Assembly (NCBI RefSeq): GCF_015057185.1
Contig: NZ_SVEV01000022.1
Span: forward strand, 1-60,126
Direction: 5' to 3'
Origin: Pseudobutyrivibrio sp.
Lineage (GTDB): Bacteria; Bacillota; Clostridia; Lachnospirales; Lachnospiraceae
DNA length: 60,126 bases
The notes under the pieces were generated by a model, which worked only from the letters and a program-made list of their open reading frames with translations, had not been told where the DNA came from and made no database searches. Position numbers and translations under genes: made by a program. Below are positions 28,111 through 60,126 of the stretch, one piece after another. Every line of letters begins with the position of its first letter. Position 1 is the first letter of the stretch.

Positions 28111-28797
28111 ATGAAATTAGGTATTATAGGCGCGATGCAGATTGAAATCGAAAATCTCAAACCTTCAATCAAAGGGGCGAAAACCGAGACAATTAGCGGA
28201 GTAGAATTCATAACAGGAACAATTGATGATATAGAAGTAGTGGCAGCAGTCAGTGGCATCGGCAAAGTATTTGCTGCAGTATGCACAGAAATCATGGTTC
28301 TACACTTTGGAGTAGACCACGTAATCAACATTGGAGTTGCCGGCTCACTTGTACGTGACCTCAAGGTCCTCGACGTAGCAGTAGCAGAGTCAGCAGTTCA
28401 GCACGACATGAACACTACAGCCCTCGGCGACCCAGCAGGTCTCATCTCAGGCATCAACGTAGTCAATTTCGAAGCCGACAAGGAACTCAGCAAACTAGTC
28501 ACAGAAGTCCTAGAGGCTAGAAACATACCATACGAAACAGGTGTCATCGCATCAGGCGACCTTTTCGTAGACACAGACAGACAGCGTACAACCATCCATA
28601 AAAAATTCGACGCAATCGCAGCCGACATGGAAGGCGGCAGCATCGCCCACGTATGCTACATCAACAACGTACCATTCACACTCATCCGCTCCATCTCTGA
28701 TGCGGACGGCAGTGCTATGGACTACAATACCTTTGCAGGCAAGGCAGCGCAGCAATCCATCGCCATCGTCCTTGACCTCATCGCAAAGCTTAAGTAG
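28111..28797 (+). CDS. mtnN: 5'-methylthioadenosine/S-adenosylhomocysteine nucleosidase
   Basis: A 228-residue nucleosidase. It starts MKLGIIGAMQIEIENLK, with the active-site Glu12 kept, followed by GIGKVFAAVCTEIM, NIGVAGSL, the AADMEGGSIAHVC segment (Glu) and SISDADG (Asp). It makes S-ribosylhomocysteine for LuxS, closing the activated methyl cycle. Base use shifts strongly inside the gene: the last roughly 400 bases are rich in C-ending codons (ATC, GTC, CTC, GAC, AAC) unlike its 5' part. This tracks the approach to the giant palindrome, whose left arm begins within its last codons. Confidence 0.97.
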   Translation: MKLGIIGAMQIEIENLKPSIKGAKTETISGVEFITGTIDDIEVVAAVSGIGKVFAAVCTEIMVLHFGVDHVINIGVAGSLVRDLKVLDVAVAESAVQHDMNTTALGDPAGLISGINVVNFEADKELSKLVTEVLEARNIPYETGVIASGDLFVDTDRQRTTIHKKFDAIAADMEGGSIAHVCYINNVPFTLIRSISDADGSAMDYNTFAGKAAQQSIAIVLDLIAKLK

Positions 28798-29441
28798 GCT
28801 AAGGCCCACCACCCTTGTAAGTGTTGGCCGCCAGGCCCATGCCCACTGGTCCCGCCCACCCTGGGTGCTGTGTGCTTTGCAAGAATATTATGTTTTCCAT
28901 ATATGCAAAGACTCGCATCCTTTATTAGCATGTGTCTTTCTCATGTCTGGACAATTTTGAAAAAAGTATTTTATGGGCGGACACAAAACCTAAAATTAGT
29001 ACAACTCAGGCTCAGGGGGAATTGGGCGATTTTGGAGTGAACCTAGAAAAATAAAAGCTGGATTATCAATATATTGGCATGCGCCGCTAGGACGGCGGCG
29101 CAAGTGCGACACGCGACACGATGTCGTATAAAGCACGGTGCCAATATATGATAATCCAGCTTTTTAATTTTTCTTGGTGAACGTATTATGAGCCCAATTC
29201 CTCCTTGAGACCTGAGTTGTACCAATTAGAATTTACTAATATGTCCGCCCAACAAAAATACAGTTTTCAAAATAGTTCATCCATAGAAAGACACATGCGA
29301 GATGCTCCCTTTTTGCATATTGGAAAACTATAATATTCGCAAAATTGCACACAGCACCCAGGGTGGGCGGGACCGGTGGGCATGGGCCTGGCAGCCAGGA
29401 TAGGCAGTGGGTGGTGGGCCTTAGCCTATAAGCTGTGGGAT
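28779..29441. repeat. Giant palindromic element, copy 1
   Basis: An imperfect palindrome of about 660 bases filling the spacer between convergent mtnN and the YesM-like kinase. The core shared with other copies runs about 28876-29346. The outer arms are specific to this copy yet mirror each other: CCCACCCTGGGTGCTGTGT (28855-28873) pairs with 29349-29367. The mirror continues through both stop codons into the last codons of each gene. The centre (29055-29162) folds into a long stem with two small hairpins. There is no transposase, no ORF with coding character and no target-site duplication that I could find. Function unknown. Confidence 0.9.
29055..29162. other. Central branched hairpin of copy 1
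   Basis: The outer stem pairs GCTGGATTAT with ATAATCCAGC and continues through ATATTGGCA/TGCCAATAT. Inside are hairpin a (TGCGCCGC 29080-29087 with GCGGCGCA 29095-29102) and hairpin b (CGACA 29114-29118 with TGTCG 29122-29126, inside GTGC/GCAC). The hairpin b region is identical in copies 1, 2 and 3. Confidence 0.85.
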
Positions 29442-31211
29442 GCGGATGGTTACCTCGGTGCCGCTGCCTTCTGTGCTTGAGTAGGTGAGTCCATAGCCTG
29501 GGCCGCATAGGAGCTGGAGCCGGTGGTGTATGTTGGAGATGGCTACGTTGCTTCCTTTTGTGGGGCCGATTGGCTTTTCGGAGAGTACGGCTTTGATTTT
29601 GTCGGCTGGGATGCCGACGCCGTCGTCTGAGACGATGATTAGGATGTCGTCATTTTCTTCCCATCCGGTTATGATGATGGTGCCAGATTTGTTTGCTTTC
29701 TCAAGAATGCCGTGTAGGATGGCATTTTCTACGATTGGCTGTAGGGTGAGCTTAGGGATTGTGAAGTTGGTAAGCTCGTCTGGCATATCTATGACTAAGT
29801 CTATTGCATTTCCATGGCGCATGTTCATAAGGTCTACGTAGATTTGGACATGCTCTAGCTCGTCAGCGATTGAATTGATGGTATTCTTTCGGCTAAGGGT
29901 CAGCTTGTAAAAACGAGAAAGTCGCTGGACTACTTCGCTGACTTCATCGGTGCGGCCTTCCTTAGCCATCCAGTTAATCATGTCCATGGTGTTATATAGA
30001 AAATGAGGATTAATCTGGGCTTGTAGCGCATTGAACTCGGCGATGCGAAGGTTTTCTGCGGTGCGTTGCTCCTGGAGAATCAGCTCCTGCATTTCCTTTG
30101 CCATATAGTTGTAGGTGGTGATAAGCTCACCAACCTCGTCTGTTGAGTCCGGCTCAGGAATAGGAATAGGTGGACCGTTTTTGGCAGCACTCATTTGGTG
30201 AACCACCTTGGAAATACGTCCGGTGATAGAACGGGACATAAGGATACCTAAAATTATTGCGATTATGATAATGGACATAACAAGGATTATAAATCTGCGC
30301 ACTACAAGATTGCCCTGTTTGATAAGCGGCTTTTCTGGAATAACAGTAACAATAAACCAACCAGGGGTCTTAACATAATTTAAGGCAACGTAAACCTTTG
30401 CCCCTAAAACATCCTTTGGAATAAAGTTGTTTGAAGACATAAGGGATTCGCTAATGTTTGAGTATGTTAAACGATAGGTTGCTGAAAGCGCCAAATCAGT
30501 TGAGGCAACGATTTCCTCACGGTCATTGATGATGTAGGAAACACCGTTGTCAAAGGTCATATTGTCCTTGAGAATGTTTGTGTAAATATCTGAGGAATAA
30601 TAGAGAGCCATATAGCAAGGATAGATTTCTCCCTCGTCATAAGTTGTCATATAGGTTATGTAGGCGTTGTCCCCAAGTTTTTCCTTTTCAAATTTACCGA
30701 GGTAGGCAGAAGGACAGTATAAGGCTGAGCTATGCTTGCCCTGAAAAATACCATACCAGTAAGTACCCTTTGCCTTTGAAATAGGATAGAAAATGTCCTG
30801 AGAGCTTGGGGCTGAAAAGAAGGCAGAATCATCAGGAATACTCATGTAGATGCGGACCTTAATTCCATCGTCCTCTAAGGCTGAGATGTAATCATGAAAG
30901 TCCTCAGCCTCGGTGGAATTAGCAATCAGATTAAAATCGCAGCCAGTACTTGTAAAGAATATTTTTTCAAAGTAAGGATTAGCAGAAATATTAGAAGAGA
31001 TTTCTGAGATTCCATCTACCACATTGGTTACCTTTGGAGTGGTAACGTTGGCTGCAATCTGAGCATTTTTTACAGTTTCAGAAATAATCATATCGTAAAA
31101 ACGATTCATAAATACGATAGAAAGAACCAAAAATGGAACAAGAATTGCCCCTGCAATTAATAGTGTAAATTTTGTCTGAATCTTGAGATTTTTAAAGGAG
31201 CTTCTAATCAT
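29421..31211 (-). CDS. YesM-type sensor histidine kinase
   Basis: A 596-residue kinase. Membrane helix 1 is at about 14-34 and helix 2 at about 300-322, flanking an extracytoplasmic sensor (dCache-like) domain. A HAMP domain follows, then the His_kinase domain (NPHFLYNTMDMINWMAKEG, with the acceptor His) and a GHKL ATPase (VENAILHG, SDDGVGIP). This class senses sugars or peptides and partners YesN-type regulators. Its start overlaps the regulator's stop by 4 bases. The last codons lie in the mirrored arm of palindrome copy 1, and the 3' end is unusually G/T-rich on the plus strand. Confidence 0.94.
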   Translation of the reverse strand: MIRSSFKNLKIQTKFTLLIAGAILVPFLVLSIVFMNRFYDMIISETVKNAQIAANVTTPKVTNVVDGISEISSNISANPYFEKIFFTSTGCDFNLIANSTEAEDFHDYISALEDDGIKVRIYMSIPDDSAFFSAPSSQDIFYPISKAKGTYWYGIFQGKHSSALYCPSAYLGKFEKEKLGDNAYITYMTTYDEGEIYPCYMALYYSSDIYTNILKDNMTFDNGVSYIINDREEIVASTDLALSATYRLTYSNISESLMSSNNFIPKDVLGAKVYVALNYVKTPGWFIVTVIPEKPLIKQGNLVVRRFIILVMSIIIIAIILGILMSRSITGRISKVVHQMSAAKNGPPIPIPEPDSTDEVGELITTYNYMAKEMQELILQEQRTAENLRIAEFNALQAQINPHFLYNTMDMINWMAKEGRTDEVSEVVQRLSRFYKLTLSRKNTINSIADELEHVQIYVDLMNMRHGNAIDLVIDMPDELTNFTIPKLTLQPIVENAILHGILEKANKSGTIIITGWEENDDILIIVSDDGVGIPADKIKAVLSEKPIGPTKGSNVAISNIHHRLQLLCGPGYGLTYSSTEGSGTEVTIRIPQLIG

Positions 31212-32767
31212 CTCATCACCTTCTCTCTGTATTCGGAAGGGGATAAGCCCACTATTTTTTTGAAGGATTTACCAAAATAGTTGCCATCGTTGTAGCCTAC
31301 CTTGCTTGATATTTCAGAAATTTTGTTTCTTGGGTCTACAAGTAATTGCTTGGCTTTGTCCATTCTGTATTCAGTGATGTATTGGTTGAGAGTGGTGCCA
31401 GTTTCTGTTTTGAAGAAGGTGCATAGGTATGAAACAGAAAGATGGGCATAGTCACTGATATCCTTTACGGAAAGGGCAGGGTTGTTGTAGTTGCTGGCAA
31501 TGTAGTTTTTAATAAGATAAATGGTCTTGTTTTCTGAGACAGTTGAATCTAAATCTGAGAAAAATGCATCTATTTTATCCATTAACAGCTGATGGAGTCT
31601 GTCATATGAAAAACAGCTGTCCATAATATCCATTATGTTTTCATTGTTCTCAATAGATAAATCAGTTATTAATTGATTTGCAGTTCTAATTTGATATAGG
31701 GTAGAAAACAGGTTGAAATAATATGTTTTAACCTGATTAGGCATTAAAATTGTTGAATTTTTGCAACAGCTATAGAGCCTGTCTAAAAGGGTTTTTACCT
31801 GTTTTTGGTCGTTAGCTTCTAATGCACTGCTAAATTCACTTATGATAGTCTCAATACTGTAGTCAGGGCTCTTGGTGCTAACTTCAGGAAGCATAAGGGA
31901 CCCCTCATCAAAGAAGAAGCTTTTTTGCAAAAGAATAACGGCTTGCTCGTAGGAATGATAGGTGTTTTCAATTCCCTCAACAAGTCCACCAACAGCAATA
32001 TAGTAGCTGCCCATGTCTTTGAAAGCGGCTTTTATATAGTCGCAAACATTTTTTACAGAATTATGAGAAATAGGACTATCGCTGTATATGTGATAAACAA
32101 GATGATATAGTCTTTTTTCAGTATAAATAATGTGAATGTGGCTGCTAGAAAGCTCTGTACGAAGATGCTGATAAATATATGGCAGCTCAGAGCTGGCCTC
32201 TGATGCTGAAGCCAATTTCACAATAATAGTGCAAAGATATTTAAATTTATTTTTCTGATTGTAGTGAATATAAAATTGATCAGAAAGCTGCTCAATAGAT
32301 TCCTTACAGGTGTTGTAAGGAGTAGTAAGATAATAAGCCAAGGAATCAGCAGCCTGATTGGCGCTAACCTGCTGGGCAGCAGACTCCCTTTTAAGTCTAA
32401 GGCATAGCTCGATTGCCTTGTGAATAGCAGACTCTAATTCTTTAGAATCGATAGGCTTTTCTATATAGTTAATGGCGCCCATTTTGATGGCGCTCATAAG
32501 ATATTCTTTGTCAGAATAGCCACTCATGAATATGGCTACGATATCTGGATTGATTACCTTTATTCGTTCAAGCATCCCGATGCCATCTAATCTAGGCATG
32601 CGAACATCACATAAAACGATATCAGGATTAAATGAACCTGCTGTCTGAAGACCATTAATTCCATCATCAGCTAGCTCTACCTGGTCAATGCCAAGTGACC
32701 CCCAATCGAAGCTGCTTACCAAGCCATTACGTGTCAATTCCTCGTCGTCAACGATAAGAAGTTTCAT
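31208..32767 (-). CDS. YesN-type AraC-family response regulator
   Basis: A 519-residue regulator. The receiver domain (1-120) has DDEE near residue 7, phosphoacceptor Asp in DIVLCDVRMPRLDG and Lys in NYIEKPIDSKEL. The middle is a long spacer domain. The C-terminal AraC domain (about 420-515) has two helix-turn-helices: LSVSYLCTFFKTETGTTLNQY and VGYNDGNYFGKSFKKIVGLSPSEYR. Together with the kinase it probably controls the divergent ABC transporter operon starting 105 bases away. Confidence 0.95.
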   Translation of the reverse strand: MKLLIVDDEELTRNGLVSSFDWGSLGIDQVELADDGINGLQTAGSFNPDIVLCDVRMPRLDGIGMLERIKVINPDIVAIFMSGYSDKEYLMSAIKMGAINYIEKPIDSKELESAIHKAIELCLRLKRESAAQQVSANQAADSLAYYLTTPYNTCKESIEQLSDQFYIHYNQKNKFKYLCTIIVKLASASEASSELPYIYQHLRTELSSSHIHIIYTEKRLYHLVYHIYSDSPISHNSVKNVCDYIKAAFKDMGSYYIAVGGLVEGIENTYHSYEQAVILLQKSFFFDEGSLMLPEVSTKSPDYSIETIISEFSSALEANDQKQVKTLLDRLYSCCKNSTILMPNQVKTYYFNLFSTLYQIRTANQLITDLSIENNENIMDIMDSCFSYDRLHQLLMDKIDAFFSDLDSTVSENKTIYLIKNYIASNYNNPALSVKDISDYAHLSVSYLCTFFKTETGTTLNQYITEYRMDKAKQLLVDPRNKISEISSKVGYNDGNYFGKSFKKIVGLSPSEYREKVMR

Positions 32768-32871
32768 AAAAAAAATTTACCCCACATCAAAAAAAATTAC
32801 TCTAATTAATTCCCAAAACTAATGATAGCATAATAACAGAGGATAAAGAACAAAAAAAGGGGGAAAATCTT

Positions 32872-34389
32872 GTGTCTGAGTACATTCTGGAATTAAAAGG
32901 TATCACAAAAATATTTCCAGGCGTTAAGGCTCTAAACAACGTACAGTTCCAGCTGAAAAAAGGTGAAGTACATGCGTTGATGGGCGAGAATGGAGCTGGA
33001 AAATCTACTTTTATCAAAGTTATCACAGGTGTTCATAAAGCTGAAGAAGGTGAGATGTTCCTTAACGGTCAAAAGGTTGATTTTAAGGGACCAAGAGATG
33101 CACAGGCAGCAGGTATAGCAGCGGTATATCAGCATCCAACATCATATCCTGACCTTTCAGTTACAGAGAACATTTTCATGAACCATGAAATTAAAAAGCA
33201 TGGCATAATCCAGTGGAAGGAAATGAATAAAAAGGCTCAGGAATTCTTAGATGAGCTTGATGCAGATTTCAAATCTACTGAGGAAATGGGAACACTTTCT
33301 GTAGCACAGCAGCAGATGGTTGAGATTGCAAAGGCTATTTCAACAGGAGCCAACATCATCATTTTAGATGAGCCAACAGCTGCACTTACAGCAAATGAAG
33401 CCGAGAAGCTTTATGAGATAGTAGAGAAGCTGAGAGATAAGGGAGTTTCAATTATCTTCATATCACATAGATTTGAGGATATGTATAGACTAGCAACAAG
33501 AGTTACCGTATTTAGAGATTCTCAGTACATAGGAACCTATGACGTTGATAAAATCACAAATGCTGATTTGATTAAGGCCATGGTTGGTCGTGAGATTAGC
33601 GATATGTATCCAAAGCCAGAGGTTGAATTTGGTGAGGAAATGCTAAGGGTTGAGAATCTATCACGGGTAGGTTACTTTAAGGATGTTAACTTCAACGTAC
33701 GAGCAGGAGAAATCATTGGTCTAACAGGGCTTGTTGGTGCAGGACGTACAGAGGTTGTTGAAGCAATCTGTGGTATCACAAAGCTTAATTCCGGAAAGGT
33801 GTTTTTACAGGGCAAGGAAGTAAATATTAAGAATCCTACAGATTCAAAGAATCTTGGTATTGTACTTCTCCCAGAAGATAGACAAAAAACTGGATTGATT
33901 CTTAGCTGGGGACTAGGAAGAAATGTAACACTTCCAGTATTCGACAGAATCTCAAAGAAGGGCTTCTGTGATGAAAAGAAGGAAAGAGATTTATCAAAGA
34001 AACTTCTTGAGGAAGTAGATACAAAGGCTGTTTCAATATTTGATCCAGCAAGCTCATTATCAGGTGGTAATCAGCAAAAGGTTGTTGTTGCAAAGGCCCT
34101 TGCACAGGACAACATGAAGGTAATTATCATGGACGAGCCAACAAAGGGTGTAGACGTTGGCGCCAAAGCAGAGATTTACTCAATTATGGGTGAGCTTGCA
34201 AAGCAGGGCTATGCAATTATTATGATCTCCTCAGAAATGCCTGAGATTTTAGGTATGTGTGACAGAATTTTTGTAATGTGCAACGGACATATTACAGGCG
34301 AACTTACAAGAGGCGAGGTAAGTCAGGAAGCAATTCTTGAACTTGCAATGGAAAAAGGCAAGGAATCTAAAGAGGAGGTTGTTTCATAA
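32872..34389 (+). CDS. Sugar ABC transporter ATPase (RbsA/MglA family)
   Basis: A 505-residue ATPase with two ABC domains in one chain, as in RbsA and MglA. Domain 1 has Walker A GENGAGKST, signature LSVAQQQMVEIAKA and Walker B IIILDEPTAAL. Domain 2 has a degenerate Walker A (GLVGAGRTE), signature LSGGNQQK and Walker B VIIMDEPTKGVD, both usual for this family. The start is GTG 32872, after AAGGGGGA. It powers uptake of a sugar or sugar-like ligand. The stop overlaps the next permease gene by one base. Confidence 0.95.
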   Translation: MSEYILELKGITKIFPGVKALNNVQFQLKKGEVHALMGENGAGKSTFIKVITGVHKAEEGEMFLNGQKVDFKGPRDAQAAGIAAVYQHPTSYPDLSVTENIFMNHEIKKHGIIQWKEMNKKAQEFLDELDADFKSTEEMGTLSVAQQQMVEIAKAISTGANIIILDEPTAALTANEAEKLYEIVEKLRDKGVSIIFISHRFEDMYRLATRVTVFRDSQYIGTYDVDKITNADLIKAMVGREISDMYPKPEVEFGEEMLRVENLSRVGYFKDVNFNVRAGEIIGLTGLVGAGRTEVVEAICGITKLNSGKVFLQGKEVNIKNPTDSKNLGIVLLPEDRQKTGLILSWGLGRNVTLPVFDRISKKGFCDEKKERDLSKKLLEEVDTKAVSIFDPASSLSGGNQQKVVVAKALAQDNMKVIIMDEPTKGVDVGAKAEIYSIMGELAKQGYAIIMISSEMPEILGMCDRIFVMCNGHITGELTRGEVSQEAILELAMEKGKESKEEVVS

Positions 34390-35378
34390 TGGAGAATAAG
34401 AGTATATGGAAGAAAATTACATCTTCCAGAGAGGTATCTCTTCTCATAGTTTTAGTTATTCTGTGTGCATTGATTACTATTAAGACTCCTTCCTTTTTGG
34501 AATGGGCTAATATATCAGAAATCTTAAAGAACAATGCAACGACAATGATTATGGCACTTGGAATGTTGCTGGTGCTATTAATCGGAGGTATTGATATTTC
34601 AATTGGTTCAACTCTTGCATTTTCAGGAATGACAATTGGAATCATGTATAAGTACAATCACTTATCATCAACATTACTTGGATTTTTAATTGCATCAGGA
34701 ATCGGTATTGCATGCGGACTTGTAATTGGTTTAATAATTGCATACGGCAAGGTTAGTCCAATTATTTGTACCTTGGGTACCATGTATGTTTATCGAGGCT
34801 TTGCTTACTTAGTTGCAAATGATGAGTGGGCAGGTGCAGATGCACTTGGAACCTTCAAGGATTTCGCATTAAAGGATTTCCTTGGAATCAACTCGGCAGT
34901 GTGGATTACAATCATCTGCTATGTGGTCTTTTTCATAGTAATGAAATGGACAAAGTTCGGACGTAATATTTATGCAGTAGGTTCTAATGAAGAGGCTGCA
35001 GAAATTTCAGGTATTAATGTTAGGTTGGTAAAGACCTGCGTATATACAATTATGGGTGGTCTTTCAGGTCTTACCGGTGCATTAATGACATGTGTATATG
35101 CTTCAGCGCAGCCAAACATGGCAACAGGAAAAGAAATGGACGTTATCGCTGCTTGCGTAATCGGTGGTGTATCCATGACAGGTGGTAGAGGTTCAGTTGC
35201 TGGTGCATTAATTGGTGCTTTAATCCTTTCCGTTATTTCTAAGGCATTACCATTAGTTGGTATTGATGCTTTAGCTCAAAACACAGTAAAGGGCATAATT
35301 ATCATAGCTGTTATCATCCTCAACGTAGTAACTCAGAGAATGATGGACAAGGCAGCTCTTGAGAAGAGAGAGATGTGA
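34389..35378 (+). CDS. Sugar ABC transporter permease 1 (RbsC family)
   Basis: A 329-residue polytopic membrane protein with about 8-10 helices. The ALGMLLVLLIGGIDISIGS block (about residues 52-72), AYGKVSPIICTLGTMYVYRG and AVGSNEEAAEISGI are signatures of RbsC-type permeases (BPD_transp_2). Its start codon overlaps the ATPase stop. It would dimerise with permease 2 in a heterodimeric channel. Confidence 0.93.
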   Translation: MENKSIWKKITSSREVSLLIVLVILCALITIKTPSFLEWANISEILKNNATTMIMALGMLLVLLIGGIDISIGSTLAFSGMTIGIMYKYNHLSSTLLGFLIASGIGIACGLVIGLIIAYGKVSPIICTLGTMYVYRGFAYLVANDEWAGADALGTFKDFALKDFLGINSAVWITIICYVVFFIVMKWTKFGRNIYAVGSNEEAAEISGINVRLVKTCVYTIMGGLSGLTGALMTCVYASAQPNMATGKEMDVIAACVIGGVSMTGGRGSVAGALIGALILSVISKALPLVGIDALAQNTVKGIIIIAVIILNVVTQRMMDKAALEKREM

Positions 35379-35382
35379 GGAA

Positions 35383-35450
35383 GGTGCGATTATGACGAAG
35401 TCATAATTTGCATCGCACCGACCGATGTGTCAGGATTGGCATAGCCAATC
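35383..35450 (+). promoter_or_regulatory. Two hairpins between permease genes
   Basis: GGTGCGA-TATGAC pairs with GTCATA-TCGCACC (35383-35419), and GATTGGC pairs with GCCAATC across ATA (35434-35450). They lie in the operon between permease 1 and permease 2 and have no T-tail. They may act in mRNA processing or stability to set unequal expression. Confidence 0.45.
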
Positions 35451-35480
35451 GTGACGATTCAATTTAAGGAGGGAGAAAAA

Positions 35481-36485: not shown

Positions 36486-36555
36486 TTACCGGTATCCATT
36501 CCGAGAGGGGAATTGATATAAAAACCAAAAACAATATATTGGGAGGTTAAAAGAA

Positions 36556-39486: not shown

Positions 39487-39516
39487 GGAGCCACCCAATA
39501 CAGTGGCTCCTTTTTT
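39487..39516 (+). terminator. Terminator of phosphomutase, inside palindrome arm
   Basis: GGAGCCAC and GTGGCTCC pair, followed by TTTTTT. A mirrored, decayed copy (about 40288-40310) lies in the right arm. Confidence 0.85.
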
Positions 39517-39839
39517 ATGCCCTGCCTTGCCTCCTGGTCCCACAAATATTTGTCACACGGCCCCCTGTTCTTAGTCCAGATCAACTGGCCCTGCACTCAG
39601 GTCCATCACATTAGTTCAGGTCCCTGCCCCCATGGCCTCTGCCAACAGGTGTAGCTAACACTTCGCAAGAATATTTTGTTTTCCTAATATGCAAAGACTC
39701 GCATCTTGATTAGCATGTGTCTTTCTCATGTCTGTACAATTTTGAAAAAGGTATTTTATGGGCGGACACAAAAAACTATATTTAGTGCAACTCAGGCTCA
39801 GGGGGAATTGGGCGATTTTGGAATGAACCTAGAAAAATA

Positions 39840-39950
39840 AAAGCTGGATTATCAATATATTGGCATGCGTCGCTAGGACGGCGACGCAAGTGCGACACGC
39901 GACACGATGTCGTATAAAGCACGGTGCCAATATATGATAATCCAGCTTTG
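39840..39950. other. Central branched hairpin of copy 2
   Basis: Same fold as copy 1. Hairpin a reads TGCGTCGC/GCGACGCA here, against TGCGCCGC/GCGGCGCA in copy 1, a two-sided (compensatory) change. The hairpin b region is identical to copy 1. Confidence 0.85.
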
Positions 39951-40381
39951 TGATTTTTCTTGGTGAATGTATTATGAGCCCAATTCCCCCTTGAGACCTG
40001 AGTTGTACCAATTAGAACTTACTAAAATGTCCGCCCAACAAAAATACATTTTTCAAAACAGTTCATCCATAGAAAGACACATGCGTGATGCTCCCTTTTG
40101 CATATTGGAAAACTAAAAATATTCGCGAAACTGTGTTAGCTACACCTGTTGGCAGAAGCCACGGGGGCAGGGACCTGAATTGTTTTCATAGAGGACCAGA
40201 GTGCAGGGACAGTTTGACTGTGGCTAAGGGCAGGGGACCGTAACAAAAGTAAAGGTGGGACCAGGGAGGCAGGTATAGGAAATGGGAAGGAGCCACTGTA
40301 CTGGGGGATGCTCGACTTTTTATTTGAATTGGGGCATAATAATACAAAAGCGAGTTGTAATGCAGAGAAAAGAGGCTTGAT

Positions 40382-49395: not shown

Positions 49396-50028
49396 CATCC
49401 CTCTAAGGGCCCCACATACAACATCAGGCCAGCCCGGCCCTAGGCCCCACCCGCCAGGTATGCCGTGAACTTTGCAAGAATATTTTGTTTTCCAAATATG
49501 CAAAGACTCGCATCTTTTATTGGCATGTGTCTTTCTCATGTCTGGACAAATTTGAAAAGCTGTTTTCTATAGGTGGACACACAAAACTTAAAAAAATTGT
49601 GCATTTCAGGCTCAGGGGAACTTGGCGCGATTTTGGAGTGCGCTTAGAAAATTAAAAGCAGGATTATCAATATATTGGCATGCGCCGCTAGGAGGGCGGC
49701 GCAAGTGCGACACGCGACACGATGTCGTATAAAGCACGGTGCCAATATATGATAATCCTGCTTTTTAAATTTTCTTAGCAAACGTAATATGAGCCCAAGT
49801 CCCCTGAACCCTGAGATGCACATTTAATAAATCTGCAGTGTCCACCTAGTTGGAAAACACTTTTCAAAATAGTTCATCCATAGAAAGACACATGCGGGAT
49901 GCTCTCTTTTGCATATTGGAAAACTACAATATTCGCAAAATTGTTCACGGCATACCAGGCGGGTGGGGCCTAGGGCTGGGCTGGCCTGGTACCTAGTGGC
50001 AGGGCCCTTAGAGGACTGCTATTAGGTG
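49382..50028. repeat. Giant palindromic element, copy 3
   Basis: An imperfect palindrome of about 650 bases filling the spacer between the convergent AlgX-like and SGNH genes. The core runs about 49470-49944. The outer arms are again unlike those of copies 1 and 2 but mirror each other: CCTAGGCCCCACCCGCC (49439-49455) pairs with 49958-49974. The CTCTAAGGGCCC segment near the left edge is repeated inverted at the stop codon of the right-hand gene. The core shows several paired base changes relative to copy 1. Confidence 0.9.
49654..49765. other. Central branched hairpin of copy 3
   Basis: Same fold as copies 1 and 2. The outer stem reads GCAGGATTAT/ATAATCCTGC here against GCTGGATTAT/ATAATCCAGC in the other two, a compensatory change. 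The loop of hairpin a differs by one base; hairpin b is identical. Confidence 0.85.
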
Positions 50029-51072
50029 GGCCGCGATGGCTGCGAAGCCGGCGTCGTTTGGATGGCCTGCTAGGAAGGAGCCTATTGTGTAGACGGTGCC
50101 GTCTGGTGTGGTGTAGGTGTCTCCTTCTTGGAGCTGGTATTCGGCTACGCCTTGGATGTCAGAGAGGCTTACGTAGGTACAGCCGGTGGCAGAGGCTACG
50201 GCCTTTTTGGTGCTGATGATGCTTGAGTATGCCCAGAAGTTGTCTAGCATTACGATGCGGGCATTAGGGTTGTAGGCTCTGATGTAGGTGATCATGTCGG
50301 TGAGGTCTTCCTCAAAGTGGGTTTCGTGACCTTTGACGTTTTCGCCTAGTTCTATGACGATTGTTCCGTACTGGTAGTTTGTGATGTATGGATCTAGGTC
50401 GTCTAATTCGTAGTTACGTGTGTTTGAAAATTCCCATGCTCTAAGTGACATGTAGTCGTAGGAGCTGTAACCCTTTGCGGCTACGGTAAGGTGTACGTAG
50501 TCGTTGTCAGGTGTGGATGCTCCACAGCCCCATCCTGAGCCCCACCAATCGCTGGTGGCTGGATACATGGTGATTGAGTTGCCAATGAATAAAATGTCCT
50601 TGGTGGCTGTTGGCTGACCCTTTGATGTGGATGGCATAGGAATGTCGATGTATTCCTCAGATACGTCATCGAAGGAGATGTAGCCATAGTCTCCATTGGT
50701 CTTTATTTTGTAGAAATCAGTCTGTTCGCAGGTTCCTACGATAGAAACTCGTTGGTCAACAGAGAGTGTGCCAATGATTTCTGCGGCATCGTAAGGCTCT
50801 TGGCGGACTGTGGCATCCGCCTGTGCGAAGTATGTGGCCTCGAATTCCTTGAAGGTGTATTCTTCCTCTTCTTCGGCATTCTCAGTGGCTTCCTCAGCGG
50901 CAGCCTCTTCTTGGGCCTGGGCTTCTACGCGGGCTTGTTCTTCAGCTTCTTGTTGTTCCTTTGCAGCCAGCTCGGCAGCCTTTTGCTTATTTTGATATAT
51001 AACTAGGCTAGCAAATGCAATAATAAGAACTACAAGTGAAATCCATAGTGAAATGACAATTTTCTTTTTCAA
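50008..51072 (-). CDS. Membrane-anchored SH3-like + SGNH-hydrolase-like protein
   Basis: A 354-residue protein starting at TTG 51072, after AGGAG. A membrane anchor lies at about 6-27, followed by an Ala/Glu/Gln coiled segment (about 28-75). Next is a bacterial SH3-like domain (about 78-140: ATVRQEPYDAAEIIGTL, YKIKTNGDYGYIS), then an SGNH domain with LFIGNSITMYP (Ser) and LAGHPNDAGFAA (His), Asp/Asn positions in between. It probably acts on cell-wall or capsule esters. The 3' end lies in the palindrome copy 3 arm and is unusually G/T-rich on the plus strand. Confidence 0.87.
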   Translation of the reverse strand: MKKKIVISLWISLVVLIIAFASLVIYQNKQKAAELAAKEQQEAEEQARVEAQAQEEAAAEEATENAEEEEEYTFKEFEATYFAQADATVRQEPYDAAEIIGTLSVDQRVSIVGTCEQTDFYKIKTNGDYGYISFDDVSEEYIDIPMPSTSKGQPTATKDILFIGNSITMYPATSDWWGSGWGCGASTPDNDYVHLTVAAKGYSSYDYMSLRAWEFSNTRNYELDDLDPYITNYQYGTIVIELGENVKGHETHFEEDLTDMITYIRAYNPNARIVMLDNFWAYSSIISTKKAVASATGCTYVSLSDIQGVAEYQLQEGDTYTTPDGTVYTIGSFLAGHPNDAGFAAIAAHLIAVL

Positions 51073-51094
51073 AATATTTCTCCTGTTAGATAAT

Positions 51095-51111
51095 TAGTAT
51101 TATAATTACTG
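51095..51111. promoter_or_regulatory. Candidate NrtR operator, degenerate
   Basis: TAGTATT-ATA-ATTACTG resembles the perfect TAGTAAT-AA-ATTACTA palindrome ahead of the Nudix gene. It lies 46 bases before the NAD(P)HX repair gene. Confidence 0.3.
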
Positions 51112-51156
51112 TATTATATCACTTTATAAAATATAAGTCATTTAAGGGGTTTTACT

Positions 51157-52650: not shown

Positions 52651-52674
52651 TCAAGAAATAGTAATAAATTACTA
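52642..52674 (+). promoter_or_regulatory. Promoter overlapped by NrtR-type palindrome
   Basis: TTGACA (52642-52647), 17 bases, then TAAATT (52665-52670) form a promoter. The perfect palindrome TAGTAAT-AA-ATTACTA (52659-52674) covers the -10 box, which is where a repressor would sit. Confidence 0.5.
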
Positions 52675-52704
52675 CTATATGGGAATATAAATAAGGAGGA
52701 CGCA

Positions 52705-53523: not shown

Positions 53524-53536
53524 GAGGCTCAAATTA

Positions 53537-54286: not shown

Positions 54287-54295
54287 GAGGGTTTT

Positions 54296-54715
54296 ATGAA
54301 TTACAACGTGGAGAAGATATTTTTGGACTTGCCAAGAATGAGCAAGGTACACACAAAAGCTGATTATGAAAAGTACACTAAGGTGTTTACTGAAGAAAGA
54401 TATGGTGAGTTAGAGAGTCTTGTTAAGGCTGACAACGTAGAAGAGCAGTGTGAGCTTTTCTGCAATGATGTTTTTGAAAACTATAAAAAGTTTGGTAAGG
54501 TTCGTGGTGGGGACCAGATGAATCTTAACTATTTTATGATTTTCTTCATTTTCCCTACAATCCTTACAAAGGAAGAAAATGGCGAAGCTATCTGCAATAC
54601 ACTTAGAGATATTTGGAACAAGAAATTTGATGCTAATATAAATTATACAAATTACGATTCTCTTTATGATGGCTTCCGTACAAAAATTTTTGGAATACCA
54701 ATTGGAAAGAGCTAA
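54296..54715 (+). CDS. Unrecognised 139-aa protein in NAD operon
   Basis: ATG 54296 follows AGGAGGG. The protein is soluble, helix-rich and acidic/aromatic, with no recognised domain. Segments that may be conserved are GGDQMNLNYFMIFFIFPTIL (about 74-93) and the C-terminal YDSLYDGFRTKIFGIPIGK. It lies 10 bases after nadE and one base before the asparaginase gene, so it is in the same operon. A role linked to NAD or nitrogen metabolism is a guess from context only. Confidence 0.75.
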   Translation: MNYNVEKIFLDLPRMSKVHTKADYEKYTKVFTEERYGELESLVKADNVEEQCELFCNDVFENYKKFGKVRGGDQMNLNYFMIFFIFPTILTKEENGEAICNTLRDIWNKKFDANINYTNYDSLYDGFRTKIFGIPIGKS

Positions 54716-54716
54716 A

Positions 54717-55742
54717 ATGAAAAAGATTTTAATGATAGGTACAGGTGGAACTATTGCATCTAAACAAACAGATGCAGGGCTCACACCTGGACTTACGGCT
54801 GAGGACGTTTTGTCCTACATTCCAGCAGTTGAACATGTTTGTGAGGTTAATACTATTCAGATTCTTAATCTAGATAGCACAAATATGACTCCAGTGCATT
54901 GGAAAAAAATAGTTAAAACAATCGAAGATAATTATGATAGCTATGACGGCTTTGTTGTATGTCATGGTACTGATACTTTGGCCTATACAGCAGCTGCTCT
55001 TAGCTATATGATACAAAATTCTGCAAAGCCAATAGTTGTAACTGGTTCACAAAAGCCAATTAGTCGTGACGTTACAGATGCAAAGACTAATCTATTGGAT
55101 TCTTTTATCTACGCTTCAGATGATGCATCTCAGAATGTCAGCATTGTTTTTGACGGCAAAGTTATATGCGGTACAAGAGCAAAAAAGGAAAGAGCAAAAA
55201 GCTACAATGCATTCTCAAGCATTAATTTTCCATATTTAGCTGTAATTCAGGATGGAGTTATTATTAGATATATTCCTGAGGTGCCAGTTAGAGGCATCCC
55301 TATTTTTTACTATGAGATGTCTGACCGTGTAACATTACTAAAGCTATATCCGGGCATGAAGGCAGATGTATTGTCATATCTTTTTGAAAACTACGATATT
55401 GTGGTTATTGAGAGCTTTGGTGTAGGTGGCATGCCTGCAACTCTTATGGAGACCTTCTATCAGGAGATGGAAAAATGGCAGGGCACTGACAAGCTTGCAG
55501 TTATGACAACTCAGGTAGCCAATGAAGGCAGCAATATGACTGTTTATGAGGTAGGACGCCAGATTAAGGCTGATTTCCACATGATAGAGGCCTATGATAT
55601 GACCTTGGAGGCTACAATTACTAAGCTTATGTGGCTTAGAGGAATGAATTACAACAACAAGAGACTTCGTGACGTTTTTTATACTGAAATAAACAGAGAT
55701 ATGTTATGGAGAAAAAATGAAAACAATTCCATTGTACGATAA
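54717..55742 (+). CDS. L-asparaginase
   Basis: I choose ATG 54717 (341 residues, MKKILMIGTGGTIASK); the longer frame from 54666 lies within the previous gene. The two catalytic Thr motifs are MIGTGGTIASK and FVVCHGTDTLAYTAAALSYM, with TDAKTNLLDSF downstream. There is no signal peptide, so it is the cytoplasmic type I. It releases ammonia from asparagine, which NadE could use. The 3' end overlaps the AlaX-like gene by 26 bases. Confidence 0.93.
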   Translation: MKKILMIGTGGTIASKQTDAGLTPGLTAEDVLSYIPAVEHVCEVNTIQILNLDSTNMTPVHWKKIVKTIEDNYDSYDGFVVCHGTDTLAYTAAALSYMIQNSAKPIVVTGSQKPISRDVTDAKTNLLDSFIYASDDASQNVSIVFDGKVICGTRAKKERAKSYNAFSSINFPYLAVIQDGVIIRYIPEVPVRGIPIFYYEMSDRVTLLKLYPGMKADVLSYLFENYDIVVIESFGVGGMPATLMETFYQEMEKWQGTDKLAVMTTQVANEGSNMTVYEVGRQIKADFHMIEAYDMTLEATITKLMWLRGMNYNNKRLRDVFYTEINRDMLWRKNENNSIVR

Positions 55743-56874
55743 GGATGCCTTCGCTAAGGAATTTGCGGCGAAGGTGATTTCTTGTGAAGAGGTTTTTACC
55801 GGCGACAGAAAACTTTATAAGGTAGTGTTGGATCAGACACTGTTTTTCCCAGAGCAGGGGGGACAGACCAGTGATATAGGTACGATTGATTCATCAAATG
55901 TAGTAGACGTCCAAATCGAAAATGAGATTATCTACCATTATTGTACTAGCGGCTTTCTTAGCGGCGAGTCAGTAAATGCCAAAATCGATTGGAATCATCG
56001 ATTCAACAATATGCAGCAGCACACCGGTGAGCATATTTTCACAGGATTGGCTCACAAAAAATATGGAGCTGACAATGTTGGATTTCATTTAAGTGATAAC
56101 ACAGTTACATTGGATTTAAATGTTGAATTAAACCAAGAGCAAATCAGAGAATTAGAACTGGCTGCTAACCAATTGATTGCAAAGGATGTAGAGGTTAGGG
56201 CCTATTATCCAGAACCGGCATTGTTGCCAGCAATTGATTATCGCAGCAAAAAGGAAATATCAGGGCCAGTACGACTTGTGGAAATCGAAGGTACAGATAT
56301 CTGTGCTTGCTGTGCACCACATGTTAAAACCACAGGTCAGGTAGGTATTTTAAAGGTTGTTGATTTTGGAAAGTACAAGGGCGGTACTAGAGTGTACATT
56401 TTGTGTGGACTTAGAGCTCTTGAGGATTACAACCGCCGAATGAGTATTCTTGCTAAAACATACCAGAAACTAAGCTGTATGGAAGATGAGATTCCTGAAA
56501 AGGTAGCTGGTATAATCGAGGACAACAAGCAGCTGAAATTCAGCGTTTCCGAAGTGAAATTTAGTGCTCTTATGAGCCAAATTGAAAAATATCCATCAGA
56601 TTTGATTGATGTGACAATATTCACCGAAGACTTAGATGCTAAAAATATGCGCGACGGAGTTAATGCATTGGTTGAAAAGCACGCAGGCTTATGTGCCATT
56701 TTCTCAGGAAATGACGAGGATGGATATAACTTTGTTATTGGCAGCTCTACAAGAGATTGTAGCGCCATTGCAACTGGACTCCGTGAGCTTTTAGGTGCAA
56801 AAGGCGGCGGTAGCAAGCAAATGGCGCAGGGAAATGTTATGGCCACTAGAAGCCAAATCGAGAACACATTGTAA
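55717..56874 (+). CDS. Alanyl-tRNA editing protein (AlaX-like, long form)
   Basis: A 385-residue stand-alone editing protein. The first part is the AlaRS-type beta-barrel (FFPEQGGQTSDIG) and editing domain with zinc ligands H102xxxH106 (QQHTGEHIF) and the C-terminal pair in CACCAPHVKTTGQVG (about 190-204). The last 100 residues form a DHHA1-like segment ending AKGGGSKQMAQGNV. It removes Ser or Gly wrongly charged on tRNA(Ala). ATG 55717 overlaps the asparaginase gene, indicating translational coupling. Confidence 0.92.
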   Translation: MKTIPLYDKDAFAKEFAAKVISCEEVFTGDRKLYKVVLDQTLFFPEQGGQTSDIGTIDSSNVVDVQIENEIIYHYCTSGFLSGESVNAKIDWNHRFNNMQQHTGEHIFTGLAHKKYGADNVGFHLSDNTVTLDLNVELNQEQIRELELAANQLIAKDVEVRAYYPEPALLPAIDYRSKKEISGPVRLVEIEGTDICACCAPHVKTTGQVGILKVVDFGKYKGGTRVYILCGLRALEDYNRRMSILAKTYQKLSCMEDEIPEKVAGIIEDNKQLKFSVSEVKFSALMSQIEKYPSDLIDVTIFTEDLDAKNMRDGVNALVEKHAGLCAIFSGNDEDGYNFVIGSSTRDCSAIATGLRELLGAKGGGSKQMAQGNVMATRSQIENTL

Positions 56875-56952
56875 TAAATATGTAACAAATTGTAACAATT
56901 GTGTTATACTACACTTAACGAAGTTGTAACAAGCAAATGAAAAGGGAAGAAT

Positions 56953-57669
56953 ATGGAAAATTTAAAAGAGATTTTGAGCAATGTGTTCAGCAATGCAAAC
57001 GTCCGTAGATGGATTGTGGAGGGATGTATTTGTATTGCACTTGGAATTAGTGTTGCTTGTATTACATTTAATGTGCTAAATAAAGAAAAGAAAGAGCTTA
57101 CAGTTAGTGCTGAGGCTGCGGCTTCGCCAGTTACAGAAGAGGAAACTACAGCTGAGGTAAATGGTGAGGGCTTGCCAGCAGATGATCCAGATGCAGATGT
57201 TGTAATAGAGGTTGTAGAAGGAACCTCTGATGATGAGGTAGATAATACTTCAGCCTATGGTTATGCACCTGAGATTGCTGATTGGTCATCTGAGGAGATA
57301 GATGCTGCTATCCAGGAGAGAAGCGGATATATTTCAAAGACAAAGTATCAAAGCGCTGTAGCCCATTTATGGGAGAGTCAAAGAGAGGTGACAGATGTTG
57401 CCTGCTACTGTATGTATCTTTTTAACACAGATTCAACCGTTTATACAGCAGCTGATTTTGAGGATATGTCTCCAGAAATCATTCATTTAGCAAAAAATGA
57501 AATATATGCAAGACACGGATATTCTTTCAAGGATGCTGATCTTTACAATTATTTCATGGCACAGATTTGGTACACACCATCGGTGCTTCCAGCAGACTTT
57601 AGTGAGGATGTTTTTACTGAAACCGAGGTAAAGAATCTTGATATGCTTAATGAAATAGATACTCTTTAA
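56953..57669 (+). CDS. YARHG-domain membrane-anchored protein
   Basis: A 238-residue protein with an N-terminal membrane helix (about 22-42, IVEGCICIALGISVACITFN), an acidic low-complexity spacer (about 50-100) and a YARHG domain near the C-terminus (LAKNEIYARHGYSFKDADLY, about 179-198, then WYTP). The domain is extracytoplasmic and of unknown function, often on the cell surface. ATG 56953 follows AAAGGGAAG. TGTAACA repeats in the spacer before it may be regulatory. Confidence 0.88.
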   Translation: MENLKEILSNVFSNANVRRWIVEGCICIALGISVACITFNVLNKEKKELTVSAEAAASPVTEEETTAEVNGEGLPADDPDADVVIEVVEGTSDDEVDNTSAYGYAPEIADWSSEEIDAAIQERSGYISKTKYQSAVAHLWESQREVTDVACYCMYLFNTDSTVYTAADFEDMSPEIIHLAKNEIYARHGYSFKDADLYNYFMAQIWYTPSVLPADFSEDVFTETEVKNLDMLNEIDTL

Positions 57670-57686
57670 TATATGCCGAAATGTAG

Positions 57687-57716
57687 AAGGACTGACAGTA
57701 ATGTTGGTCCTTTTTG
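57687..57716 (+). terminator. Intrinsic terminator
   Basis: AGGACTGAC and GTTGGTCCT pair around a short loop, followed by TTTTT. Confidence 0.75.
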
Positions 57717-57785
57717 TTATGATTTTCTCTAGGATTTTGGCTAAGGAGTCTGTATAATTGATAAGGATTTTTATGAGGAGAGAAT

Positions 57786-58937
57786 ATGGAAAAGAAAACA
57801 GCTAGACAGTCAAATATAGAGATACTTAGAATTGTGGCGATGTTGATGATCATCGCTTATCACATTATTATACATTGCGTAAATATTCAGCTTAGCAATA
57901 CAATGTCCATCGAGAGGATGCAGAATGGATGGTTTAGCACACCAGACTTCTATCGTCAGCTTATGATGTTGGCCCTTATGATGCCGATGGGATTGGTTGG
58001 CAATGCTATTTTTATCATGATTTCAGGATATTTCTTGATTGATAGAGATATCGATATGCTAAAAATATCAAAGAAGCTTCTAGGACAGCTTTTATTTGCG
58101 GCAGTGGTACTTGTTTTAGCGTCCACATTTTGCATTTGGTACACCAAGGACAATATAGCTACCGAAAATTTACTTAACTACATTAAAATTCAGTACTTTA
58201 ACAAAATGTCCTGGTTTGTTGGCTACTATTTTATAATAATTCTCATAGCATTTATGTTTTTAAACAAGTTCCTAGCGAAGCTTAATGCAAAGCAGCATCT
58301 AGGCTTTATGTTTGCAATCTTCGCCGTTACCGAACTAGGCTGGTCAGGCAAGCTTCTAGATGATTTAGCAAGTGGACTTAGAACAGTATTCATCGGAGTA
58401 TTCTTATATTCCTTTGCAGGTTACATCAAAAAATATGACCCATTTAAAAGAGTTAGGACCTACGTATTTTTCCTTTTAATCATATTAGTAAATGGAATTG
58501 TAGGTATCTCTTATTACAACAACGTTATGGGCAAAATCCAGACCTACAACTACAATCTTTTGGTGGACCCAACAGTTGAACTAGATTTTGTTCAAACAAT
58601 TCCAAAGTACGAAAACTTTAGTATTGTTGTAGTTTTAATTGGTATTTGCATGTTTGAGCTCTTTAGAAGAATGCCTATTCCATCAAGCAAACCAATTAAC
58701 TATTTAGCACAAACTACCTTTATGATATACTTGCTTCATGACAATGGATTGGCTTACAGTATATGGGAAACAGAAGATTGGATTACACTTCTTTACCATG
58801 ATGCGTCCGGATTTTTAGTCAAATTATCATGCTGGACCTTAAAGGTATTTGCAGTAGGTGCACTGGCATACGGAATATATATCGCACTAGTTATGATACT
58901 GAAAAAGTCTAGCTGGCTTTTTATAAAGAAAGGGTAA
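57786..58937 (+). CDS. Acyltransferase family 3 membrane protein
   Basis: A 383-residue polytopic membrane protein with about ten helices, beginning RQSNIEILRIVAMLMIIAYH (Arg/His catalytic region) and carrying NAIFIMISGYFLID, of the acyltransferase-3 family. It is paralogous in type, but not close in sequence, to the 45615 gene. It would acylate a surface glycan. ATG 57786 follows GAGGAG. Confidence 0.9.
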   Translation: MEKKTARQSNIEILRIVAMLMIIAYHIIIHCVNIQLSNTMSIERMQNGWFSTPDFYRQLMMLALMMPMGLVGNAIFIMISGYFLIDRDIDMLKISKKLLGQLLFAAVVLVLASTFCIWYTKDNIATENLLNYIKIQYFNKMSWFVGYYFIIILIAFMFLNKFLAKLNAKQHLGFMFAIFAVTELGWSGKLLDDLASGLRTVFIGVFLYSFAGYIKKYDPFKRVRTYVFFLLIILVNGIVGISYYNNVMGKIQTYNYNLLVDPTVELDFVQTIPKYENFSIVVVLIGICMFELFRRMPIPSSKPINYLAQTTFMIYLLHDNGLAYSIWETEDWITLLYHDASGFLVKLSCWTLKVFAVGALAYGIYIALVMILKKSSWLFIKKG

Positions 58938-58946
58938 AGGGAGACA

Positions 58947-59198
58947 ATGGAGAAATACACTTACACACCAAAGGGCGTATGTGCTCGCCAAATCGAATTT
59001 GAATTAGAAGATGGAAAGCTTCACAACGTAAAATTCACAGGTGGCTGTGACGGAAACACAAAGGCTATCGGAAAGCTTCTTGAAGGGGCTGACGCTGCTA
59101 ACACAGTCAACATCCTCAAAGGAAACATCTGCGGAATGAAGGGAACAAGCTGCGCAGACCAGCTTGCAAAAGGAATCGAAGAAGCATTAAGCAACTAA
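58947..59198 (+). CDS. TIGR03905-family (TSCPD) small protein
   Basis: An 83-residue protein with EKYTYTPKGVCARQIEFELE at the start, VKFTGGCDGNTKAIGKLLEG in the middle and GMKGTSCADQLAKGIEEAL at the end. The three Cys residues and pattern are those of the TIGR03905 (TSCPD-type) family, found alone in Clostridia and as a C-terminal domain of some ribonucleotide reductases. Its own function is unknown. The start follows AAAGGGAG. Confidence 0.88.
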   Translation: MEKYTYTPKGVCARQIEFELEDGKLHNVKFTGGCDGNTKAIGKLLEGADAANTVNILKGNICGMKGTSCADQLAKGIEEALSN

Positions 59199-59200
59199 AC

Positions 59201-59234
59201 AAAAAATGCTGGCGTAGCGCCAGCATTTTTTTAT
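59201..59234. terminator. Bidirectional terminator
   Basis: TGCTGGCG and CGCCAGCA pair over a TAG loop, with A's before and T's after, so it works in both directions between convergent genes. Confidence 0.9.
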
Positions 59235-59722
59235 ACCATCTCAGCATTAGCCGAAACAACATTTTCTTCATTCTTTTCTCTAAAAATTGTTCTAAATATT
59301 AATCTTACAAAAGGTCCACAATAAAAAATCTGATACAAAAGAGCCATTGGGAAATTCATACCCCAAGTCTGTACCCATGTACCAAAGCTTTGATTCTCCT
59401 TAAACAAGAGTGTAGCCACAAGGCTCATGATAGGACACATAATGCAGCAAATACATGCTGAAATAGCAAATGTAATAACTGCAGGTCTATCAGTAGGTCT
59501 CACAACTCTAAAGGCAAGAGCTCCCGCAAGCTTACTAACTGCAAAAAACTCTAAAATAAAAGCGATTGGAACCATAATAGGCAGCTCATGAAGTGCCATC
59601 ACGAAAGTAGCATTAGTAACACCACCTGTATTCAATGCTACATTGTAGCAAACCATTCCGTAAACCATAACAGTCGCCATAATTATTGTAAAAATAACAT
59701 CCTGAAATTTTGTCTTAGGCAT
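59231..59722 (-). CDS. DUF2798-type membrane protein
   Basis: A 163-residue protein with four membrane helices, PKTKFQDVIFTIIMATVMVY at the start (typical of DUF2798) and SFGTWVQTWGMNFPMALLYQ in the second half. It probably faces the cytoplasmic membrane with both ends inside; function unknown. The minus-strand start at 59722 follows AAGGAGG. Although it is on the minus strand, the plus strand through it is A/C-rich, in line with its position left of palindrome copy 4. Confidence 0.85.
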   Translation of the reverse strand: MPKTKFQDVIFTIIMATVMVYGMVCYNVALNTGGVTNATFVMALHELPIMVPIAFILEFFAVSKLAGALAFRVVRPTDRPAVITFAISACICCIMCPIMSLVATLLFKENQSFGTWVQTWGMNFPMALLYQIFYCGPFVRLIFRTIFREKNEENVVSANAEMV

Positions 59723-59879
59723 AAAAAACCTCCTTCGCCAATGAATAACAAATACGTGTGTTGTTCGTTGGCTCCAGGAGGAGTGTCGTTTCCAATATCT
59801 ACCAAATATTTAACTAACGCAGATTATATTATCATCATTTGACACCAAATTGCATGGTAATTTTCACCAATATTCAAGC

Positions 59880-60126
59880 CCTATACATTTGTACAATTTG
59901 CCACCTCTCACAACCTGCCACCTCAAATTGGCCCCTGCCCCATGCTGGCCCACTATATTTTACGTGCCCCTTCCTGGCTCCTACCTGCCGGCCGCCCCTA
60001 GTGGCAACACAATTTCGCGAATATTTCAGTTTTCCAATATGCAAAAGGGAGCATCCCGCATGTGTCTTTCTATGGATGAACTGTTTTGAAAAATGTATTT
60101 TTGTTGGGCGGACATTTTAGTAAGTT
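59880..60126. repeat. Giant palindromic element, copy 4 (partial, inverted)
   Basis: From about 60008 to the window end the sequence is the reverse complement of the right-hand core arm of copies 1 and 2 (GCATGTGTCTTTCTATGGAT and TGTTGGGCGGACAT are diagnostic), so this copy is in the opposite orientation. The C-rich stretch at about 59880-60007 is the expected left outer arm. The other half and any mirror partner lie beyond the window. The 59723-59880 spacer holds no gene I can support. Confidence 0.85.

Follow-up and report, generated by a model that had tools for sequence, protein, structure and literature searches.

Long palindromic elements with a shared RF01731-containing core and copy-specific, self-paired arms in Pseudobutyrivibrio

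Features of the locus

The window analysed here is the whole 60126-nucleotide contig NZ_SVEV01000022.1 (C55) of Pseudobutyrivibrio sp. assembly GCF_015057185.1 (genome G000, 3.25 Mb in 62 contigs; G, C and L numbers denote genomes, contigs and loci), which carries a giant palindromic element with a common core of about 470 bases in three full copies and a fourth that is truncated by the contig end (Table 1). The copies are spaced by 10786 and 9815 bases, followed by about 10 kb to copy 4. Regarding the inner arms in the window, the complementarity was 87-96% over 46-60 bases, and the arms were separated by 471-472 bases. Folded as single-stranded DNA, copy 1 (28798-29425) forms one long hairpin of -236.9 kcal/mol, compared with a mean of -82.1 +/- 6.5 kcal/mol for shuffles of the same sequence (n=20), of which none (0/20) was as good. 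No open reading frame (ORF) of at least 90 amino acids was found across a core in the window; this ORF check was also the extent of the search for a transposase inside the elements. The palindromes with a shared core that were claimed in an initial annotation of the window, made from the sequence alone, were thereby confirmed, and its statement on the lack of coding capacity was supported.

Table 1. Coordinates of the palindromic elements and their parts in the window
Feature	Position	Strand	Remarks
Copy 1, whole palindrome	28797..29427	+	Reaches the stop codons of the convergent ORFs 28111-28797 (+) and 29421-31211 (-)
Copy 1, left inner arm	28825..28875	+	Copy-specific, C-rich; 96% complementary to 29347-29397
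Copy 1, core	28876..29346	+	Conserved, quasi-palindromic
Copy 1, RF01731 (TwoAYGGAY) match	29030..29189	+	60.4 bits
Copy 1, right inner arm	29347..29397	+	Pairs with 28825-28875
Copy 2, whole palindrome with patchy outer arms	39490..40309 (ends approximate)	+	In our reading, a terminator-like hairpin belonging to the upstream gene lies partly within the left outer arm
Copy 2, left inner arm	39602..39661	+	87% complementary to 40133-40192
Copy 2, RF01731 match	39817..39974	+	57.1 bits
Copy 2, right inner arm	40133..40192	+	Pairs with 39602-39661
Copy 3, whole palindrome	49400..50014	+	Right arm takes in the stop codon of ORF 50008-51072 (-)
Copy 3, left inner arm	49425..49470	+	96% complementary to 49943-49988
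Copy 3, RF01731 match	49631..49790	+	60.6 bits
Copy 3, right inner arm	49943..49988	+	Pairs with 49425-49470
Copy 4, opposite orientation, cut by contig end	about 59985..60126	-	About 118 core bases and adjoining C-rich stretch; partner outside the contig

Core and arms

Read outward from the centre, the elements consist of RF01731, a conserved quasi-palindromic core, a copy-specific and well-paired inner arm, and patchy paired blocks between internal loops. The core extends about 235 bases to each side of the centre, and its bulges recur across aligned copies. The most telling feature, absent from the initial annotation, is that each copy has outer arms which are complementary to one another but unrelated to those of the other copies. 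Among 20 copies of G000, the mean identity of an inner arm with its own partner was 0.89, versus 0.57 (maximum 0.67) for left arms with the right arms of other copies. L007 and L010 have cores that are 98% identical and left arms that are 0.64 alike; over all copies the correlation between core identity and arm identity was 0.15, on which ground copying of the arms along with the core was rejected. An origin of the arms as copies of other genomic sequence was also rejected for the two window arms searched against their own genome, which matched only themselves and their partners (copy 1, 28798-28876, at E < 1; copy 2, 39515-39672, at E < 0.1).

The extent of the pairing was determined for 86 elements of the genus (98 in total, 90 with 700 bases on both sides, with L017, L135, L145 and L149 dropped). 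At a distance of 248-272 bases from the centre, 73% of the windows had an exact own-partner match of at least 12, compared with 12% at 320-344 and none from 392 on, so that pairing reaches the background level by about 390 bases; between randomly picked copies of one genome, such matches were zero from 224 bases on. Read inward, the inner arms hold 461 C, 201 G, 174 T and 164 A in 1000 bases. The C/G ratio was 1.98 at 260-285 bases versus 1.13 at 735-760, a gradient which lies partly outside the paired zone.

The RF01731 centre

The initial annotation had recognised no known RNA family in the core and had named an Rfam match as evidence to the contrary. This search, when run, found RF01731 (TwoAYGGAY), to which the central approximately 160 bases of the three full copies correspond over the whole model (1-168) at 57-61 bits (gathering cut-off 43 bits); the claim was therefore given up. 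In copy 1, GGA is kept by the first hairpin loop (UAGGAC) and lost from the second; the first loop of L024 is ATGGAC (AYGGAY loops were looked at in single copies only).

TwoAYGGAY is a candidate RNA without a known function. Weinberg et al. 2010 (PMC2864571, excerpt) list it for human gut, gamma-Proteobacteria and Clostridiales and rate it as probably RNA, probably not cis-regulatory and probably not a switch. (Note that Rfam, unlike this rating, gives the type of RF01731 as Cis-reg.) Binding of CsrA was proposed in a 2014 paper (PMC4333381, excerpt), and two covarying base pairs were added to the family in Rfam 15 (PMC11701678, excerpt).

Copy number and distribution

A 451-base core query matched G000 at 23 places over at least 384 bases and at nine more over a shorter length, each of these nine lying at a contig end. 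Altogether 11 contig ends of G000 fall inside an element (C5, C11, C16, C30, C32, C36, C44, C52, both ends of C53, and C55), which indicates that the assembly breaks there and that the true copy number needs long reads. An extra short core piece on C40 is part of a split copy, L017, which is interrupted at about 1381-1500 (G000:C40 about 57085-57204) by an insert of about 120 bases with many small hairpins, probably another small mobile repeat. Neighbouring copies on other contigs lie 7-18 kb apart, which suggests local clustering within G000.

The RF01731 searches used strict filters and a limited number of scored candidates per genome, and all counts are minimum values. Matches were found in 27 of the 29 genomes of the genus and in two of eight sampled genera elsewhere in the Lachnospiraceae, and in none of 24 genomes of other families or 14 controls; in a wider sample of the family, 65 of 397 genomes had a match, representing 58 of 334 genera. 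The most element-rich genome was G021 (38 matches), and G009 yielded zero matches under the strict filters. In a pattern search of named records, from which the window's own genome may be absent, the core matched 44 stretches, 43 of them from Pseudobutyrivibrio and one from Butyrivibrio fibrisolvens 16/4. The four copies at a spacing of about 10 kb on which the initial annotation had been based are thus real, but the family is not confined to them: it is genome-wide, and the core, whose presence in related genomes had been proposed as a check, occurs across the genus. No description of these elements was found in the open-licence literature searched.

Beyond the genus, no giant palindrome was present at 16 places of G032 and G036 (17 loci, as one place is represented twice). 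The stem just outside RF01731 was nevertheless copy-specific there, the longest exact match being 15.8 with the own partner versus 7.9 in cross-comparisons, and variants were common to both arms of one copy in most rows inspected (L094 being a counter-example). In L096 and L098 (both G036), RF01731 copies in opposite orientation lie 241 and 295 bases apart within one larger palindrome. Regarding the 29 new loci of the wider sample, each from another genome, 26 were long enough for the arm test, in which the comparison was between genomes only: own matches of at least 10 were present in 58% at 84-108 bases and in 38% at 132-156 bases, versus at most 0.8% between genomes. Two of the loci (L285 and L307) were paired out to at least 200 bases from the centre. 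Private arms thus look common in the RF01731 family of the Lachnospiraceae, of which Pseudobutyrivibrio has the large form.

Placement and individual sites

Based on crude ORFs, 88 elements were found in convergent (29), co-directional (53) and divergent (6) gene contexts, 82 of them being downstream of at least one gene. In the co-directional settings RF01731 runs against the genes in 35 cases and along them in 18 (raw counts).

The element at L012 of G000 is located between two convergent genes, which we read as coding for a small lipoprotein and for a sugar kinase of the PfkB type; in G012, G015 and G016 this gene pair abuts or overlaps without an element. In G000 the unrelated ends of the two genes have a 19-base inverted block in common, compared with longest blocks of 10, 6 and 7 bases in these three relatives. 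The relatives are closer to the lipoprotein end of G000 than to its kinase end, which argues that copying at L012 probably ran from lipoprotein to kinase. The relatives may, instead of preceding a gain, have lost the element.

At a site 3' of a mutS2-like gene, 28 loci were examined, with a convergent neighbour in three (G000, G016 and G012). The elements of G000 and G016 have unrelated arms, and G012 has a smaller palindrome instead of an element. Judged by eye, this smaller repeat of about 105-120 bases is present in L244 (G012), L245 (G022), L248 (G004), L252 (G002), L255 (G013) and L262 (G015), where its core is similar and its outer stems are copy-specific; the outer stem of the G012 repeat resembles a terminator.

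It is conceivable, though very improbable, that an ordinary miniature inverted-repeat transposable element (MITE) targets existing inverted repeats such as terminator hairpins and that the arms are the stems of its targets. The smaller repeat seems, by eye, to be set in terminator loops in several species, and terminator-like hairpins were read within the outer arms of L010 and L011. Terminator stems are, however, much shorter than inner arms of about 45 bases with patchy pairing that continues to about 150 bases beyond the core, and almost no intergenic DNA is present at L012 in the three relatives.

At the first window site no element was detected by core BLAST in 26 relatives (L101-L126) within about 1.5 kb past the orthologous gene, or less at contig ends; the neighbourhoods differ, so that gain or loss cannot be deduced there. 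Elsewhere in the window, a GA-cis RNA (RF02987) was matched at 35375-35465 with 41.3 bits (cut-off 34.7).

Changes between close species

When the loci were oriented by RF01731, several same-site pairs had opposite flanks. Between G011 and G019, in which 10 copies per genome allowed pairing at four sites only, the core was inverted at three of the four, with surroundings that align at 89.6-96.7%. With the flanks opposite, the cores matched at 373/402 (L156/L158), 218/224 (L139/L144) and 313/390 (L135/L159), versus 290/425, 170/237 and 272/430, respectively, the other way round; the pair L157/L161 was not inverted. In more distant pairs, opposite orientation may equally reflect separate insertions.

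The ungapped arm columns of four close pairs comprised 342 columns identical in all four arms, 93 shared mismatches, eight swapped and 16 other; ten columns had changed alike on both arms, only in L136/L137 and L156/L158. The inner arms of L140/L141 and L157/L161 were almost unchanged between the close species. Arms thus do not change fast under vertical descent, and the presence of unrelated arms in different copies calls either for arms made at insertion or for old copies whose cores were homogenised. The nearest core was located in the own genome for 12 of 16 same-site copies (the exceptions L135, L156, L157 and L140 having it in a close species), for which reason same-site elements were dropped as proof of vertical descent; either independent insertions or old copies that were homogenised may underlie the shared sites. 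The core of L136, for instance, lies nearer to that of L130 in the same genome (0.043) than to that of the same-site L137 (0.184), although the arms of that site are partly shared.

These observations bear on an explanation by which new arms are made whenever an active mobile element inserts, for example by snapback fill-in of a tailed hairpin or by untemplated addition followed by copying. Cores up to 98% identical with arms hardly more alike than in other pairs are consistent with it, as are the two window arms without a genomic match except the partner, the common C-rich style of the arms, the absence of the L012 arm at the site in relatives, and inner arms so nearly unchanged between close species that drift alone is insufficient. 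The cores may, however, only look young through homogenisation, as the position of L136 indicates, and no polymerase or transposase was tied to the family in a search that covered Y1 only. We consider arm-making at each insertion rather unlikely.

RNA signature and enzymes

Selection of the whole palindrome as a giant RNA hairpin, acting as 3'-end stabiliser, terminator or CsrA sponge with arms that co-vary for an RNA stem, is in our estimate unlikely. It would agree with the predominant position downstream of genes (with six elements between divergent genes), with the Rfam type and the proposed CsrA binding, and with the finding that, over the central 170 bases, the + strand gave the better fold in 98 of 108 elements (by a mean of -4.4 kcal/mol; the copies are related, and one G032 place was counted twice), a preference which may fit RNA or single-stranded DNA. 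Arm mismatches were counted in the 88 elements minus the six divergent ones, L135 and L145. In gene direction there were 98 G-U versus 85 A-C (p 0.38; 52 co-directional elements), and in RF01731 orientation 136 G-U versus 151 A-C (80 elements). RNA selection should favour G-U, and the lack of a significant excess in either orientation argues that the arm pairing is probably maintained in DNA, not in RNA. Further points against a giant RNA are that the element flips relative to its genes, that no intrinsic terminator pattern was found in 28700-29520 around copy 1 by a scan allowing loops of 3-8 bases only, that the second motif loop of copy 1 is without GGA, and that the excerpt of PMC2864571 rates the motif as probably not cis-regulatory.

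The initial annotation had argued that cleavage by SbcCD makes the persistence of such palindromes exceptional. This carries little weight, as 26 of the 29 genomes of the genus, including that of the window, are without an SbcD match above the curated cut-off. One of the three positive genomes (G002, G015 and G019), G019, still has 10 RF01731 matches; in G011 two adjacent SbcD pieces fall just under the cut-off. In seven species an element lies a few hundred bases from a gene for an Mre11/SbcD-like protein (sub-cut-off TIGR00619 match), namely at L015, L140, L141 and L150 and at the SbcD-like matches of G005, G018 and G025. The Y1 (HUH) transposase (PF01797) was rejected as mobiliser, being matched in 10 of the 29 genomes, with one match in G000 and none in the element-rich G021.

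Interpretation

The explanation we favour, with somewhat better than even confidence, is an old, multi-copy, non-coding MITE-like palindromic element with RF01731 at its centre, the arms of which are written and maintained by template switching or by gene conversion between inverted repeats. MITE-like traits are the short length, the lack of coding capacity, the multiple copies, the inverted-repeat ends and an element-free site in relatives (L012, three relatives). Template switching between inverted repeats homogenises arms, produces multi-base changes and inverts spacers (excerpts of PMC8604942 and PMC8794818). These marks, among them arm homogenisation and spacer inversion at a fixed site, are present in the elements, which supports this reading and is in line with the restoring process that the initial annotation had considered, the signs of which are arms matched within copies and a core inverted between close species. 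The fading of the pairing with distance, the inverted block in the gene ends at L012, the ten concerted columns and the lack of a significant G-U excess likewise speak for it.

In the proposed mechanism, the quasi-palindromic core would form a hairpin or cruciform, probably during replication, across which the polymerase (or inverted-repeat recombination) could switch, so that one arm would template the other. Repeated switching would write mirror copies of the core flanks, keep the inner arms matched, spread matching blocks outward over the adjoining DNA, in places as far as gene ends, and flip the core. Recent copying or gene conversion between copies might keep the cores within one genome alike. 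Positions downstream of genes would be the main ones at which copies are tolerated, as a strong hairpin is presumably least harmful there and may form a two-way transcription barrier. The RF01731 centre, with its strand preference, may have kept a role of its own, either as RNA or as a substrate in the form of single-stranded DNA.

Several observations weigh against this explanation. The C-rich composition of the inner arms is not predicted by template switching, and the inner block ends 42-54 bases out in 10 of 20 G000 copies, which looks designed. Private long arms are not universal, the inner paired block being shorter than 20 bases in nine of 86 elements. One-arm changes outnumber concerted ones (61 versus 10 columns, two of the four close pairs being without a concerted column), so that homogenisation is not fast. 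The C-rich inner arm is missing from the near-zero gap of the L012 relatives and was thus seemingly not copied from that target, and the direction of copying given for L012 is a reading of an alignment, not a formal reconstruction. L135, which contributes to the inverted pairs, is a shortened copy. Finally, no mobilising enzyme was found, the Y1 transposase family alone having been searched.

A bolder proposal is that RF01731, rather than being an RNA family in the first place, is the engine of a self-palindromising DNA element across the Lachnospiraceae which actively writes a private mirror image at each site; the similar length and the C-rich style of the inner arms would point to a dedicated arm-building process, not an accidental one, and the RNA-like covariation would be at least partly a by-product of DNA copying. 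This is possible but doubtful. The dozens of palindromes of 600-800 bases in rumen Pseudobutyrivibrio, with arms that fit their own partners, suggest a process within the DNA by which one arm is copied from the other. A predicted RNA structure is usually proven by covariation, and here stems around a catalogued RNA candidate co-vary without a significant RNA signature; copying at the DNA level may thus mimic such evidence across stretches of hundreds of bases. The family, whose sites number up to dozens per genome and which is inverted at some sites between close species, is a natural system for measuring the origin, maintenance and flipping of long bacterial palindromes.

Comparison with known systems

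Repetitive extragenic palindromic (REP) elements with TnpA-REP (PMC8266576, excerpt) are likewise dispersed intergenic palindromic repeats, but they are far shorter, at 20-40 bp (PMC3733652, excerpt), and are associated with a Y1 transposase, unlike the elements described here. The coding palindromes of nematomorph mitochondria (PMC6649704) also comprise many long inverted repeats with matched arms, there of up to 284 bp; they are perfect and lie within genes, and the excerpt mentions no shared core, whereas the present elements are intergenic and built round a conserved core. Parallels are also found in template switching and quasi-palindrome correction, with arm homogenisation, multi-base changes, spacer inversion and changes in coding DNA as observed here, and the homogenisation of long inverted repeats is already known from that work (excerpts of PMC8604942 and PMC8794818). 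What sets the present elements apart is that they form a single repeated family, found at dozens of sites and extending over 600-800 bases, in which the core is shared and the arms are private. The Rfam model of RF01731 ends at 168 positions, and the core of about 470 bases, the copy-specific arms and the inversion lie outside it; what looks new beyond the catalogued motif is the quasi-palindrome of about 470 bases together with its private, self-paired arms.

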